A stretch of DNA of 28,296 bases from the IMG/VR virus record IMGVR_UViG_3300031840_000463, positions 1 through 28,296 of that record; one strand, 5' to 3'. The translations under genes were made by a program, and so were the position numbers. The notes under the pieces were generated by a model. The model did no database searches. It was not told the DNA's origin and worked only from the letters and a program-made list of their open reading frames with translations. Source of the DNA: a virus. Positions 2,005 through 7,848 of the stretch are shown piece by piece; within the stretch, counting starts at the first letter, position 1; every line of letters begins with the position of its first letter.

Positions 2005-2643
2005 CTATATCATATTTTGGTCAGTCAGGTCAGGTAATCCATCACAAACCTTTAACGTGGGCATACTCTTTTGTACCTGCATCATGTGTTGTATTTCATC
2101 CTGTCTAGTATCGTATATTTCCCTGTCAGTTCTACTCTGATTGAATGACCACAGATAACCATATGCAGGGTCTGCAATGTTGAATCTGATACCTGCTGCA
2201 GTACCACGTTTGTTATAGATTCTATTTGCCCACTGTGATTTGACTGCATCTGCAAATGTCTGACCATCATACCAGAAATGTATTTGTGATTCTGTATCTA
2301 CATAGACCATGTAGGTAGGTGGGTATACTAGGTATTCACTGTATGACATTGACCCCAGTTGTACGAGTTCTGCAAAGAATGAACGGTATCTACCACCATT
2401 CTTTGCACTTTTGACCTCTACTGTGAAACCTTGCAGATAGTTGTCTGTGATTGCATACCCCAGAATGTCAAATGGGTCTGATGGTTTAATGTCACGTGTC
2501 ATTAGTACCTTTTCACAGTCCTGATGACCTGTCAGATGACTGTAAAGGTCTAGATTCCAGATTGCAGTTTCCTGTACTGCCATTTCTGAAACTATACCCC
2601 TACATTTTAAACGTTTGAACTCTGCTTTATCTACTTTAATCAC
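2005..2643 (-). CDS. PD-(D/E)XK nuclease-like protein
   Basis: The 212 residues contain a plausible PD-(D/E)XK core: an N-terminal helix with Glu26 (AVQETAIWN), Asp59 in PSDPFDILG, then E76-V-K78 in FTVEVKSA, followed by a basic loop and FFAELVQ, as seen after the active site in this superfamily. Asp59 to Glu76 spacing is normal. Such proteins are Mg-dependent DNases used as restriction-like, recombination or replication-fork nucleases. The start is GTG at 2641-2643 with GAGGT upstream. It overlaps the TGA of the primase-helicase gene (GTGA), so the two are translationally coupled and probably work together. The motif-level assignment is moderately sure; substrate and role are unknown. A non-catalytic relative is the main alternative. 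Confidence 0.6.
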   Translation of the reverse strand: MIKVDKAEFKRLKCRGIVSEMAVQETAIWNLDLYSHLTGHQDCEKVLMTRDIKPSDPFDILGYAITDNYLQGFTVEVKSAKNGGRYRSFFAELVQLGSMSYSEYLVYPPTYMVYVDTESQIHFWYDGQTFADAVKSQWANRIYNKRGTAAGIRFNIADPAYGYLWSFNQSRTDREIYDTRQDEIQHMMQVQKSMPTLKVCDGLPDLTDQNMI

Positions 2644-5147
2644 TGTGCAAACCTCTGTGTGTTTGGATTGAATCGCAAATGCCCACCATCAAACTTGTCA
2701 TATAGGTACTGCTGCATGTCATCTGTCATGTCTGCAATGTTGACCCAGTCACACCCTATTTCACGTATCTGATATGGTTTGCCTGTGTCATCATAGAAAC
2801 GTATTTCAACATCTGTTATCTGACCATTTATCTCAATGTGTGATGGAATGACTACACCATCATTTACACGTTCAGGGGCTACATACCATCTACCTCTGAC
2901 ACCTCTGTATCTGCACTGTTTACCATCATTCATCATTGTCACACCTAGATTTTTCAATGCACCACTATACCACCTTAAGTATGATTTTGGTCTGACTGAT
3001 TTGTGTCTTTTTACAACAGACCCTGCATCTGTCTCCACCTCCTCAGTGTAAACCTCATCTATCATTTCTGACAGTGTGAATACTCTACTGGGGTTCTGGT
3101 CTAACCATTCTTCAACCATCGTTACATGCACATCTACAGTCTCAAATCTGGTATTTGTGCTATTTGATGCATTCTGTTCTGCAGCAGTCAACCACCATTG
3201 CACACCTTGTTTGTAGTAGTGTACTGATTCTGCCCATATTGCATCACGTACTGCAAGTAGTTCAGATTCATCATAGATACGTTCACCCTCTACACCACCA
3301 GATTCTACTATCCAGAAACGTCTAGACCCTGTACTGTCCTGCAGTATCTCATCATCATTTACTGTACCGACTATGACAGAATGTCTAGGGTGTACTGTCT
3401 CTTTTCTACCATATTTGGGTCTGTACTGGTCTGTCTGTGTTGTCAGAAACCGTTTAACATCATTGACCTCTGCACGGTTCATACCTGATAGTTCTGCCCA
3501 TTCATGTATCCATGCTAAACGTAGTTTTGTCAGTCCATCTACAGATTTTACATCTATATTTGCATCACTAAAATATGACTGTCCAGATGGGCAGACACCT
3601 GCAATACACTTAAAGAATTCAGACTTACCTGCACCCTGCAACCCTTTCAGAATCAACATGGTATCTACTTTGCAGCCCCATTCATATGCACGTGCTACTG
3701 CAGAGATACCCCATTTTTGTGCATACACTCTATTCATCTGTGTATCATTTGCATCTAAAAACTTGATAAATAGAGTTTCAAGACGTGGTACACCATCCCA
3801 TTTCAGACCATCTAGATACTCTATCAGTGTGTCACGTTGGTTTTCAAAACAGTATGATTCTACTGCATCTATGACAGTCATTTTACCCAGACGTCTACTG
3901 GGATAGAATCTACGACGTAATAGAGACTGAATCTGTGTATAGTGATGGTCACAAAACCGTTCACCATTGTACCATGTGTACCCTGTCCGTTTGCACATCC
4001 ACAAATCAAGGTCTAACAGACCCACCATGATTATCAGATTATCTACAGTGTCAAGTGGTCGCCACGACCCACCTCTATTTGAATACGATACCTCTACACC
4101 TGAATCACTGATGATACAGTCTCTGTGTGTTCTGTTTCTACCTGATGTGCATCTGTATCTGCAGATACCTGTCAAGGTGTCTACACGTCTACTGATAAAT
4201 GCACCACCTACAGACTGACCACCCTCTGCAATACACTGTATATTACCACTTGCATTCTGTGGTAGTGTATCCCAGTTCTCTATGTAGTATGTGAATGGTC
4301 TAGGTGTACCTGTGGCATCTGTTATGAGATGTGCACCTGTAACTACATCACGTCTATACCGTTCTGCAGTATCATCTGTCTCTGTTGTACGTGTTGCAGT
4401 TGTCTGTGTTGTTTGTTGTACTGCAGCTGTAGTTCTGGCAGATGTACCTGTGTTGATTGCATAGCCTGCATCTATCAGTGCAGATGTCTTAAAAATAGGA
4501 CCACTGGCAGAACGTGTAAACTGTGTACCATCTCTGTCTACTCTGTATGATGGTTTGAACCAGTATCTAGATGGGTCTTTTGTTGATTCGTCTAGATGTG
4601 GCATCATCTGTTCTATGGCATACCAGACACCACGTCTGTCATCTGTGATGTAGTCTGCAGCCTGTACTGGTTCATCAAATGGTACAATGACCCTGAATGC
4701 ACACAGACCACCTTTTGCAGGTGATTTGTGACTGAATGATGAATAGGCAATATGACAGATACCATCAAATGCAGATAGGGTTGCAGACATCTGGTCATCT
4801 GTCAGTGCATCAAAATCAAATACCATTGCATGCACTGTCTCTACTTTTGCTTTTGAACGTGCACCTGACATCTCTGACCATGTAACTGGGGCAAATATGC
4901 CAACACTCATTTTACCGTGTTCTGTGGTTTTGCCTTTTTTCACTGTCTCTGACAGGTCATCTACCTGCAGCATAGAACCAATCAATGATGACAGGTGCAC
5001 TGGTCGTTTCTGTGCATTCTCTAGTTTTGTGGTTCTGTACCATTTGCCACCTGTAGGGGCAGGGTGGTGTGTGCACAAAAGTGTCCATTTTTCAGGGTCA
5101 TAGTGTGTGTCAGTCAGGTAGTTTTGTGATATACTGTATTCAGTCAT
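2640..5147 (-). CDS. Primase-helicase: AEP-like primase fused to VapE-type ATPase
   Basis: This 835-residue protein is the replication engine. Residues about 100-215 look like an archaeo-eukaryotic-type primase: DFD at 111-113 for metal binding, SSFSHK at 136-141, RVIVPFDEP, and DESTKDPSRYWFKPS at 186-200. A Thr-rich linker (230-260) follows, then a segment with scattered Cys and His (305-345). The C-terminal half is a VapE/VirE-type superfamily 3-like helicase: LDGLKWDGVPRLETLF (445-460), Walker A GLQGAGKS (502-509), Walker B-like LAWIHEWAEL (544-553), FLTTQTDQYRPKYGR, and VGTVNDDEILQ...GSRRFW (593-612). In phages and satellites this pair primes and unwinds at the origin and recruits host polymerase. 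The start ATG at 5145-5147 has AGGA about ten bases upstream. The gene sits directly beside the candidate origin and overlaps the nuclease-like gene downstream. Confidence 0.93.
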   Translation of the reverse strand: MTEYSISQNYLTDTHYDPEKWTLLCTHHPAPTGGKWYRTTKLENAQKRPVHLSSLIGSMLQVDDLSETVKKGKTTEHGKMSVGIFAPVTWSEMSGARSKAKVETVHAMVFDFDALTDDQMSATLSAFDGICHIAYSSFSHKSPAKGGLCAFRVIVPFDEPVQAADYITDDRRGVWYAIEQMMPHLDESTKDPSRYWFKPSYRVDRDGTQFTRSASGPIFKTSALIDAGYAINTGTSARTTAAVQQTTQTTATRTTETDDTAERYRRDVVTGAHLITDATGTPRPFTYYIENWDTLPQNASGNIQCIAEGGQSVGGAFISRRVDTLTGICRYRCTSGRNRTHRDCIISDSGVEVSYSNRGGSWRPLDTVDNLIIMVGLLDLDLWMCKRTGYTWYNGERFCDHHYTQIQSLLRRRFYPSRRLGKMTVIDAVESYCFENQRDTLIEYLDGLKWDGVPRLETLFIKFLDANDTQMNRVYAQKWGISAVARAYEWGCKVDTMLILKGLQGAGKSEFFKCIAGVCPSGQSYFSDANIDVKSVDGLTKLRLAWIHEWAELSGMNRAEVNDVKRFLTTQTDQYRPKYGRKETVHPRHSVIVGTVNDDEILQDSTGSRRFWIVESGGVEGERIYDESELLAVRDAIWAESVHYYKQGVQWWLTAAEQNASNSTNTRFETVDVHVTMVEEWLDQNPSRVFTLSEMIDEVYTEEVETDAGSVVKRHKSVRPKSYLRWYSGALKNLGVTMMNDGKQCRYRGVRGRWYVAPERVNDGVVIPSHIEINGQITDVEIRFYDDTGKPYQIREIGCDWVNIADMTDDMQQYLYDKFDGGHLRFNPNTQRFAQ

Positions 5148-5186
5148 GGGGGTAGTTCCTATGGTTTTTTAGTTTGTTTGTTGTTT

Positions 5187-5221
5187 AGCCTGTACAGTCT
5201 CTGAAACTGTGCAGGCTTTTT
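5187..5221 (+). terminator. Hairpin with T-run, plus orientation
   Basis: AGCCTGTACAGT (5187-5198) pairs with ACTGTGCAGGCT (5206-5217): 12 bp with one T-G wobble and a 7-base loop, followed on the plus strand by TTTTT. It would stop rightward transcription before the candidate origin, although no rightward gene is seen to its left. On the minus strand the same hairpin falls in the leader of the primase-helicase mRNA, 40-70 nt before its start, without a U-run, so a leader structure is the alternative. Confidence 0.55.
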
Positions 5222-5432
5222 CATTATATCCAGTTCTGTGTATTTTGCATTATAAAAATAACCTGTCACACCACTTTTCTAGATGGGTGACACCCCTGTC
5301 ACAGATAGACACCCTGCAGTGGTATGTGTGACACCATGTGTGACATTCTACAGTACCTGCAACACTGGATACCATAGCATACCTGTCATACTGTCACACC
5401 ATAACCACTAAAAAAACATTTTATGCAAATCA

Positions 5433-5466
5433 GTGCCAAATAGACCCATATCTGCATATTTGGCAC
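5433..5466. repeat. 10-bp perfect inverted repeat in the origin region
   Basis: GTGCCAAATA (5433-5442) and TATTTGGCAC (5457-5466) are exact inverse complements around a 14-base spacer. There is no T-run on either side, so it is not a typical terminator. A strand-initiation hairpin or a dimeric protein site is possible. Confidence 0.75.
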
Positions 5467-5523
5467 GGTATATAGATAATGTTAAGATGTCACATCTATG
5501 TGTGACACCCCTGACAGGTCATC

Positions 5524-5544
5524 TGTGGATAAGTCTGTGGATAT
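5524..5544 (-). promoter_or_regulatory. Two DnaA-box matches
   Basis: TGTGGATAA at 5524-5532 is the exact complement of the DnaA consensus TTATCCACA. TGTGGATAT at 5536-5544 differs at one position. They are in the same orientation with starts 12 bp apart, and the second runs straight into the AT-rich repeats. Confidence 0.65.
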
Positions 5545-5586
5545 ATCTATTTTAGATTTGATGTAGGCAGATATATCTATTTTAGA
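5540..5586. repeat. Two 17-bp AT-rich direct repeats, period 30 bp
   Basis: GATATATCTATTTTAGA occurs at 5540-5556 and again at 5570-5586. The 30-bp period is close to three helical turns, so the copies face the same side of the DNA. A third partial copy, GATTTTAGA, lies just beyond (5598 onward). This looks like a DNA-unwinding element next to the DnaA boxes. Confidence 0.8.
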
Positions 5587-5601
5587 CAGGATATAATGAT
5601 T

Positions 5602-5949
5602 TTAGACCCATTCATCTGATTCACTGTCATCATCTATCTGCAGCTGTGTCATCATTTCCATATGGGTCAGTGTATTTAGTGCACACTGAATCACCTTTAA
5701 TGTCTGTGGGTGTTCATGGTGGTCATCAAAATCAACACCATCAGATGTAAACTCTACATACATGACACCATCTAGGTCATCATCTAACACATAGCCTTTA
5801 CCCTGACTGGTGATGTATGTCAGGTCTAGGGTCTGTACTGATTCTGCAAAATGATGTGCTGCAGTGATAGGGTCTATTGTTTCATCTGTTTTGATGCCAC
5901 GTAGTAACATTCTAACCAGAGTAACTATTGATATGTCTGATGTGTCCAT
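5602..5949 (-). CDS. Acidic hypothetical protein, 115 aa
   Basis: I recognise no family. The protein is strongly acidic, with a DDDLDG cluster in the middle, FDDHHEH near residue 75 and an acidic tail (DDDSESDEWV). The N-terminal 40 residues look helical. Such charge is seen in DNA-mimic and anti-host proteins as well as in many neutral phage proteins, so no role is assigned. It stands alone between a terminator on its upstream side and the candidate origin on its downstream side. The ATG at 5947-5949 has no Shine-Dalgarno sequence, but a promoter ending 7 nt upstream could give a leaderless message. Confidence 0.7.
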   Translation of the reverse strand: MDTSDISIVTLVRMLLRGIKTDETIDPITAAHHFAESVQTLDLTYITSQGKGYVLDDDLDGVMYVEFTSDGVDFDDHHEHPQTLKVIQCALNTLTHMEMMTQLQIDDDSESDEWV

Positions 5950-6049: not shown

Positions 6050-6556
6050 TCAGTTTTTACGTTTGAACAGTAGAGACATGTGACCTAACATCTGTGCATC
6101 TGTCATCTGTTCTAGATGTGCAAATAAAAATGCAAGGTCGTGCCAGTGCTGCAGAGTACATTCACGTTTACCTGTCACCCAGTGGTTTACAGAGACACGT
6201 GATATATCTAGACGTTCACCCAGACCTGCCTGTGTCATTTCATGACGTTTCATCATGATTTGCAACCACTTGCCAAATGTCATAGATTCCATCAGTATAT
6301 AGTAGGTATTATGTATATAGTTTTTTGCATCTATCTCTGAATATGCAGGACGTGTGCAGGTTATTGGGTAATGTCTATTATCAAAACTACAGTCTGCATC
6401 CCAGATAAAGTCAGTGCAGGCATCTGACCAGTACACTGTAACTTTACCAATATGTAGACCTGTATTGTAAATGTCAAATGTCTGTTCTGAGTGTTCACGT
6501 GCTGCAGTTCTGCCCCAGTTTTTAATGTAGTCTCTAGTCGCTTTTGATTCTGTCAT
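6050..6556 (-). CDS. Helix-turn-helix regulator with N-terminal extension
   Basis: This encodes 168 residues. The C-terminal part (about 92-150) is a clear Cro/C1-type domain: TFGKWLQIMMKRHEMTQAGL, GERLDISRVSVNHWVTGKRE and a closing helix with Trp and Leu. The N-terminal 90 residues are a separate, mainly beta-looking region (VTVYWSDACTDFIWDADCSF) with no match I know; it may bind a ligand or a partner. The start ATG at 6554-6556 is coupled to the upstream gene by ATGA and preceded by AAAGGCAAAAC, a ribosome site shared with two other genes of this cluster. A phage repressor or timing regulator is the likeliest role, perhaps acting on the palindromes at 7.6-7.85 kb. Confidence 0.8.
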   Translation of the reverse strand: MTESKATRDYIKNWGRTAAREHSEQTFDIYNTGLHIGKVTVYWSDACTDFIWDADCSFDNRHYPITCTRPAYSEIDAKNYIHNTYYILMESMTFGKWLQIMMKRHEMTQAGLGERLDISRVSVNHWVTGKRECTLQHWHDLAFLFAHLEQMTDAQMLGHMSLLFKRKN

Positions 6557-6813
6557 TGTTTTGCCTTTGTTGTTTGTGTTGTGAAAATAGGTGCAACCAT
6601 AATAGATTGATAGATACCCCAGTGCCTGTCTGATGGGAACTGGGTACAGAGTTTGTTGATAATGTGCATCATTGGTATGTAACTAGGTACAACATCACCA
6701 GACAGTAGACCTGTGATGGTTGACAAGTCTACTACAGTACAGTGGTTTGCCAAATCTGCAGCTGACCACTCTAGTTCTGCCATGTACTTTTTTAGTGCAT
6801 CTATACCTGTCAT
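6553..6813 (-). CDS. Small helix-turn-helix-like protein
   Basis: This encodes 86 residues. ALKKYMAELEWSAADLANHC followed by DLSTITGLLSGDVVPSYIPM has the spacing of a Cro/C1-type fold: helix 2 SAADLANHC, recognition helix STITGLLSG, then a hydrophobic helix. It is less canonical than its neighbour. It overlaps the downstream regulator gene by 4 nt (ATGA) and the upstream gene by the same kind of junction, with GGTGTACA as ribosome site. Together with the 6050 gene it may form a two-regulator switch. The tail is basic and Thr/Lys-rich. Confidence 0.7.
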   Translation of the reverse strand: MTGIDALKKYMAELEWSAADLANHCTVVDLSTITGLLSGDVVPSYIPMMHIINKLCTQFPSDRHWGIYQSIMVAPIFTTQTTKAKQ

Positions 6814-7635: not shown

Positions 7636-7770
7636 TGTCTTAAAGTTAACACGTGTTTACAGATATGTACAGTTAAATAGACAAATAAATATGTGTTTAT
7701 TTTGTATACACCGTAAGTACCGACCATGTAGAGATAAAGATTTTTTATCTATGCACCAGATACTACGTGG

Positions 7771-7797
7771 TGCAAATGGTGCAAATGGTGCAAATGG
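7771..7797. repeat. Three tandem copies of TGCAAATGG
   Basis: A 9-bp unit is repeated three times without a break in non-coding DNA between the divergent genes. It may be a cooperative binding site or slippage-prone filler. Confidence 0.85.
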
Positions 7798-7834
7798 TCA
7801 TTTTTCTGTACAGTTACCGTGTGTACTGGTCAAA

Positions 7835-7848
7835 ATACTGTACAGTAT
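7835..7848. promoter_or_regulatory. 14-bp palindrome upstream of the exonuclease gene
   Basis: ATACTGTACAGTAT is a perfect palindrome 27 bp before the exonuclease ATG. Its core CTGTACAG also occurs at 7806-7813, 32 bp away. An operator for a dimeric repressor is likely; it is too short for a standard LexA box. Confidence 0.5.

Follow-up and report, generated by a model that had tools for sequence, protein, structure and literature searches.

The non-coding gap upstream of the primase-helicase gene in the viral DNA studied here (positions 5148 to 5601 on the ORF map) is probably an iteron origin of the SaPI/PICI kind, with iterons predicted to be bound by the primase-helicase and with an optional DnaA module. 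The DNA, a virus record of 28.3 kb (28,296 nucleotides) that we call the window, has nearly all genes of its ORF map on the minus strand. Within it and its relatives, we observed the motifs, their clustering and conservation, their co-variation with the initiator, and the homology of that initiator to PriRep1.

To place the gap in context, we used eight close relatives, which are IMG/VR uncultured phages found via the primase-helicase at 65 to 81% identity (L003 to L008, L011, and L013) and which with the window make up the nine phages referred to below. The same search supplied two distant relatives, L009/G007 and L010/G008, and G011 (L244) was found through a scan for DnaA-box doublets. The gap is bounded by the start of the primase-helicase gene (5147, minus strand) and the stop of a neighboring 115-amino-acid gene (5602), and it could be aligned in 8/8 close relatives at 67 to 78% DNA identity, in a set of relatives that are few, mutually related, and mostly incomplete contigs. 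Near-complete relatives measure 26 to 30 kb, and because G003 closes on itself via a 99-bp end repeat, the genome of the group is about 29.7 kb. A search of named phages and plasmids for a DNA match found none, and a host search among genome contigs with primase and terminase gave no match. Neither overall GC skew nor skew at fourfold sites showed a clear switch at the gap, in a genome whose genes lie nearly all on one strand.

Iterons, hairpin, and AT-rich tract

The best-clustered 7-mer of the genome is TGTSACA. Seven copies lie in the gap, at 5264, 5297, 5327, 5339, 5392, 5488, and 5501, and the remaining 12 of the window are dispersed. A density of seven per 244 bp compares with a maximum of four in 300 dinucleotide shuffles, so the claim of the sequence-only reading that seven such sites fall within 244 bp holds, with clustering far above chance. 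Unsupervised 7-mer scans picked the gap in most genomes, and across the nine phages it contains 7 to 11 GTGACA cores per 420 bp, where the remainder of the genome predicts 0.4 to 0.8. In satellite phage P4, replication also involves a second site, crr. We sought an analogue of it, but no second iteron cluster of comparable density was found elsewhere, and in this respect the window differs from P4.

The iterons occupy defined slots. Measured from the primase start, GTGACA cores fall near -368, -360, -250, -198, -186, -156, -145, and -122, with extra sites in some genomes. The left pair, TGTCACAtctatgTGTGACA (5488 to 5507), occupies one slot at about -360, which all nine phages conserve, and one at about -347, a partner whose position varies, being -368 in relatives and -347 in the window, G005, and G006. 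The right set (5264 to 5398) comprises the TGTSACA sites at 5264, 5297, 5327, 5339, and 5392, a GGTGACA at 5286 to 5292, and a degenerate TGTCATA at 5384, and relatives keep the position and orientation of these slots. Read in the orientation of the primase gene, the conserved left site is TGTCACA and the first right site is TGTGACA, and these two enclose a hairpin and an AT-rich tract; further right in the window the opposed orientation becomes mixed.

The hairpin (5433 to 5466) has the arms GTGCCAAATA and TATTTGGCAC at 5433 to 5442 and 5457 to 5466 around a 14-nt loop, which confirms the perfect 10-bp inverted repeat reported before. Taken alone, such a repeat is marginal, since one with a loop of up to 20 arose in 22/1000 gap shuffles (p about 0.02). 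Across the nine phages, however, most arm positions are invariant and the loop is variable, and the single-strand DNA fold gave z values of -3.6 to -5.4. Next to it, alignment places an AT-rich tract, GATTTGCATAAAATGTTTTTTTAG on the minus strand (5407 to 5432), a candidate conserved unwinding element, and in G001, G005, G009, and G010 the 30-bp stretch of lowest stability within the gap falls here. In these alignments, then, the constant element appears as GTGACA iterons flanking a hairpin with fixed arms and an AT-rich tract, before the primase-helicase gene.

A hairpin of this constancy could itself be the origin, as proposed for pRN1 and phage BIP-1, with the repeats secondary. It is present in 9/9 phages and in G007, and pRN1 replication requires only a stem-loop and the replication operon (PMC4234260). 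The arms here hardly vary, though, and look more like a protein-binding inverted repeat, whereas the stem-loops of pRN1 keep their structure and diverge in sequence; pRN1 moreover lacks iterons and has a stem-loop of about 100 nt that lies downstream of the gene. We consider this interpretation quite unlikely. Used as the sole search handle, the hairpin pattern was unspecific and returned mostly unrelated contigs, and a similar hairpin in L106, a T7-like phage, was put down to chance.

Repeats of other kinds were seen nearby or in related genomes. Another phage with an AEP-VapE protein (L012, 570 to 1130) carries about 12 GCGTCCAAAT repeats as well as TTTATATG repeats roughly 2 kb upstream of the gene for its primase-helicase. 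In L011/G009, an ORF some 2.7 kb upstream of the primase contains a GAGGCAGAGACTGTA-like 15-bp unit in nine tandem copies. The window itself has three exact copies of TGGTGCAAATGGT with a pitch of 9 bp, together with two 20-bp repeats that end in CTGTACAGT, at 7768 to 7846, directly preceding its only long plus-strand gene, which encodes a DEDD-type exonuclease.

Promoter features and the operator interpretation

Every motif that the sequence-only reading listed is in its place, but that list overlooked two features close to the primase start. One is the -10 element of a putative sigma-70-like promoter of the primase-helicase gene (5223 to 5251, minus strand), with TATAAT at 5228 to 5223 and a weak -35 position at 5251 to 5246; the -10 pattern TAnnnT is conserved in 9/9 phages. 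The other is a leader hairpin, GCCTGCAC..GTACAGGC (5187 to 5217), which is terminator-like on the plus strand and occurs in all relatives with varying inner pairs. A sigma-54 reading of the TTTGGCAC-TGATTTGC stretch was rejected because its spacing is one base short and the relatives do not keep the GC. The -35 of the primase promoter overlaps an iteron in G002, G003, and G010, and this placement suggests that the initiator may limit itself.

The region doubles as a promoter region, where operators are expected. The iterons might be purely regulatory operators of a phage repressor at the primase promoter, bound by HTH168 (6050 to 6556) or HTH86 (6553 to 6813), with the origin elsewhere. They do surround a conserved promoter, TGTSACA is near-palindromic, and HTH168 weakly matches HTH proteins of the Cro/C1 type. 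Against this, about ten sites are a large number for an operator, spread as they are over 250 bp around a hairpin and an AT tract. G007 retains the layout with neither HTH168 nor HTH86 detectable, and G011 keeps HTH86 (40%) while its repeat word and helicase change together. Because the HTH168 of G011 is just 24% identical, these points only weaken the operator interpretation, which we hold to be improbable.

The primase-helicase and its co-variation with the iterons

The proposed initiator is an 835-amino-acid primase-helicase (2640 to 5147, minus strand) with an AEP-like N-terminal part, a VapE-like helicase (residues 445 to 668), and a C-terminal extension. It matches PF05272 at 1.5e-69, and its helicase half matches PriRep1 (7pds) at 1.1e-45 by sequence profile and 2.9e-15 by fold. 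We take 7pds to be the SaPI5 protein; its record is worded "PriRep1" and "similar to D. nodosus vapE." A fold search matched the N-terminal part to the AEP primase-polymerase 6zp9 at 4e-4. The full-length model was of moderate quality (pLDDT 64, pTM 0.36), and a fold search with a model of the C-terminal domain (pLDDT 73) gave no recognizable DNA-binding fold and no usable match. A possible nuclease with a VEVK motif is encoded at 2005 to 2643 (minus strand), with a 4-bp overlap at the primase stop; it had no family match, and in G007 and G008, too, a gene of this type comes after the primase.

Next, we compared phages with more distant initiators. G007, whose initiator is 43% identical, retains the order iterons, hairpin, AT tract, iterons, with the word TGTAACA and a longer hairpin loop; HTH168, HTH86, and p115 (the product of the neighboring 115-amino-acid gene) were not detectable there. 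G008 has a similar initiator, and no iteron cluster was found on its 16-kb fragment. A profile of HTH86 touched the G007 and G008 primases in a short match within the helicase part, which we took as chance. Just upstream of the primase-helicase gene, L009 and L010 have a small gene whose product looks by eye like a ribbon-helix-helix protein, an arrangement that recalls orf56/orf904 of pRN1.

G011 shares many homologues with the window, namely, p94 (74%), p115 (56%), p149 (56%), p84 (54%), RusA (52%), and HTH86, and it has a separate AEP gene and a different VapE helicase (36%). Its iterons, GTGTGAAA, form a block at about 11-bp pitch that is followed by an AT-rich stretch and then by three in opposite orientation, and the opposed sets are clearest in this genome. 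The putative G011 origin lies downstream of the helicase gene; that of the window and all close relatives lies upstream. Because both G007 and G011 change the iteron word along with the helicase, word and initiator appear to change together, and this ties the iterons to the initiator.

DnaA boxes, AT-rich repeats, and p115

At the far end of the gap, the window has a perfect DnaA box, TTATCCACA (5524 to 5532, minus strand), and a second box with one mismatch, ATATCCACA (5536 to 5544, minus strand), at the 12-bp pitch seen in relatives' arrays. Across the window, DnaA-like 9-mers are no more numerous than expected by chance; weight is carried by the pairing and by the arrays of the relatives. 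An exact box with a second (at most one mismatch) within 15 bp occurred in 0/1000 gap shuffles and 0/100 whole-window shuffles, which bears out the claim of a box pair 12 bp apart. The same perfect 9-mer is arrayed near this place in five relatives, with seven copies each in G001, G004, and G006, six in G005, and five in G009. In each of these contigs a single array upstream of the primase gene accounts for all copies, with pitches mostly of 12 and 21 bp. Perfect DnaA boxes are absent from G002, G003, and G010.

Adjoining the boxes is a pair of AT-rich 17-mers, GATATATCTATTTTAGA (5540 to 5601), with copies at 5540 to 5556 and 5570 to 5586, a candidate extra unwinding element of the window phage. 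Such a repeat within 60 bp occurred in 0/1000 gap shuffles, and the 17-mers form the 60 bp of lowest stability anywhere in the window (5542 to 5601). Of the 30-bp period claimed for them, the two copies stand, but a degenerate third copy (83%, 5589 to 5606) lies 20 bp further, off phase, and runs into the neighboring gene. As to conservation in the gaps of related phages, which had been offered as a check, the iterons and hairpin are kept and DnaA boxes occur in 5/8 relatives, but the 17-mers are found in the window only.

The DnaA array adjoins the 3' end of the gene for p115 (5602 to 5949, minus strand), a small acidic protein encoded next to the array whenever an array is present. Relative to the window, the p115 gene is inverted in G001, G002, G003, G009, and G010; the boxes are inverted together with it in G001 but not in G009. 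In p115 and its homologues in nine relatives, an acidic run is followed by W or F and then by V or I at the end (DDDSESDEWV in the window; DDDSDDFTWV and ESESDEFI are others), which resembles the C-terminal tip of SSB, the tail through which the bacterial protein recruits its partners. A family search with p115 gave no convincing match.

Since the arrays vary (five relatives with, in one of them inverted, and three without) while the core is invariant, the DnaA part appears to be accessory and the iteron core constant. The boxes might instead be a sink or switch, titrating host DnaA or controlling phage transcription in the manner of datA or mioC, a reading limited to the boxes that leaves room for an iteron origin. 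In E. coli, clusters of boxes are known to titrate DnaA (PMC5835720), and the boxes here are dispensable, being absent in three relatives, and shift with p115 relative to the iterons. Yet where present they are never beyond about 1 kb from the iteron core, and those of the window and of G011 border AT-rich repeats in an oriC-like layout. We regard a sink or switch as possible but somewhat doubtful. A further suggestion, which we find rather unlikely, is that the array and p115 form a portable cassette that calls in the host replication machinery, with the SSB-like tail of p115 helping DnaA or the replisome load at the iteron origin; such a cassette would sit beside different initiators (fused AEP-VapE, or split AEP and VapE in G011) and flip as a unit.

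Doublets of the form TTATCCACA-N3-TTATCCACA occur in at least 120 IMG/VR viral contigs (L159 to L278), versus six for a letter-reversed control. A VapE homologue lies nearby at only 2 of the 120 doublet loci listed.

Comparison with known origins

The sequence-only reading regarded this as an undescribed replication module. That goes too far, because SaPI5 PriRep1 is a homologue of the helicase half and the origin plan has been published (PMC6092414, PMC9894130). In SaPI and PICI origins, an AT-rich stretch lies between oppositely oriented sets of iterons (PMC6092414, PMC9894130), and the C-terminal domain of SaPI Rep binds iterons (PMC7581432). The window shares with them the homologous helicase half (SaPI5 PriRep1, 7pds), primase and helicase in one protein, an initiator gene adjoining the origin, and iteron sets that flank an AT-rich stretch. 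It differs in having a conserved hairpin, DnaA boxes (arrays in five relatives), and another iteron word, and in being a tailed-phage genome rather than a satellite. Its putative origin also lies upstream of the gene, unlike in SaPI and SCC, where the iterons are downstream of the helicase gene.

Other systems share parts of this plan. The iteron plasmids P1 oriR, F, RK2, and pSC101 likewise combine initiator iterons, AT-rich repeats, and DnaA boxes in one origin, where DnaA adds melting or recruits the host helicase (PMC4980987); however, their winged-helix Rep recruits host DnaB, whereas the initiator here would itself be a primase-helicase, and the boxes here move freely relative to the iterons. 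An AEP-plus-helicase initiator and a conserved stem-loop are found in pRN1 and phage BIP-1 (PMC4234260), which differ from the window in having no iterons and in a downstream, much longer stem-loop conserved in structure and not in sequence, against the iterons and near-invariant arms here. P4 alpha, as proposed for the window protein, is a single multidomain primase-helicase-origin-binding protein acting on repeated sites, with a bacterial-type TOPRIM primase in place of AEP (PMC4234260). Clusters of the oriC type resemble the TTATCCACA arrays, which in the window and G011 lie beside AT-rich repeats, but no dnaA gene was seen and the boxes are optional and secondary to the phage iterons. What is new thus looks like a mix of known parts, in which a SaPI/PICI-like initiator origin is joined by an optional DnaA module, and not a new type of system.

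Proposed mechanism and implications

From these features we infer protein binding, origin activity, self-regulation, and a role for the hairpin. The gap (5148 to 5601) would serve as an origin of theta-type replication. The PriRep1-like primase-helicase would bind GTGACA/TGTMACA iterons on both sides of the hairpin and AT tract, form helicase rings there, open the AT tract, and unwind outward, with its AEP part priming. The hairpin may aid strand opening or act as a priming site, and through the promoter-adjacent iterons the initiator probably restrains its own expression. Host DnaA on the boxes would be an added aid, either by local melting at the AT repeats or by recruiting host DnaB or the replisome; this aid would be strong in relatives with five to seven boxes, and in the window phage it would be diminished, resting on two boxes and the AT-rich repeat pair. 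A host-DnaA-assisted origin with phage iterons, as first proposed, is thus still the best-supported reading, but its ranking of the elements was wrong: it is the iteron-hairpin core that is invariant and the boxes that are optional.

If this interpretation is right, one group of uncultured tailed phages has a SaPI/PICI-like origin with a self-loading initiator, where a host-DnaA module can be gained, lost, or inverted, and the relatives display a joint evolutionary change of initiator and iterons. The contribution of DnaA would then become testable at an origin that already supplies its own primase and helicase. DnaA doublets at 12-bp pitch are common in viral contigs, and the question therefore extends far past the window genome.
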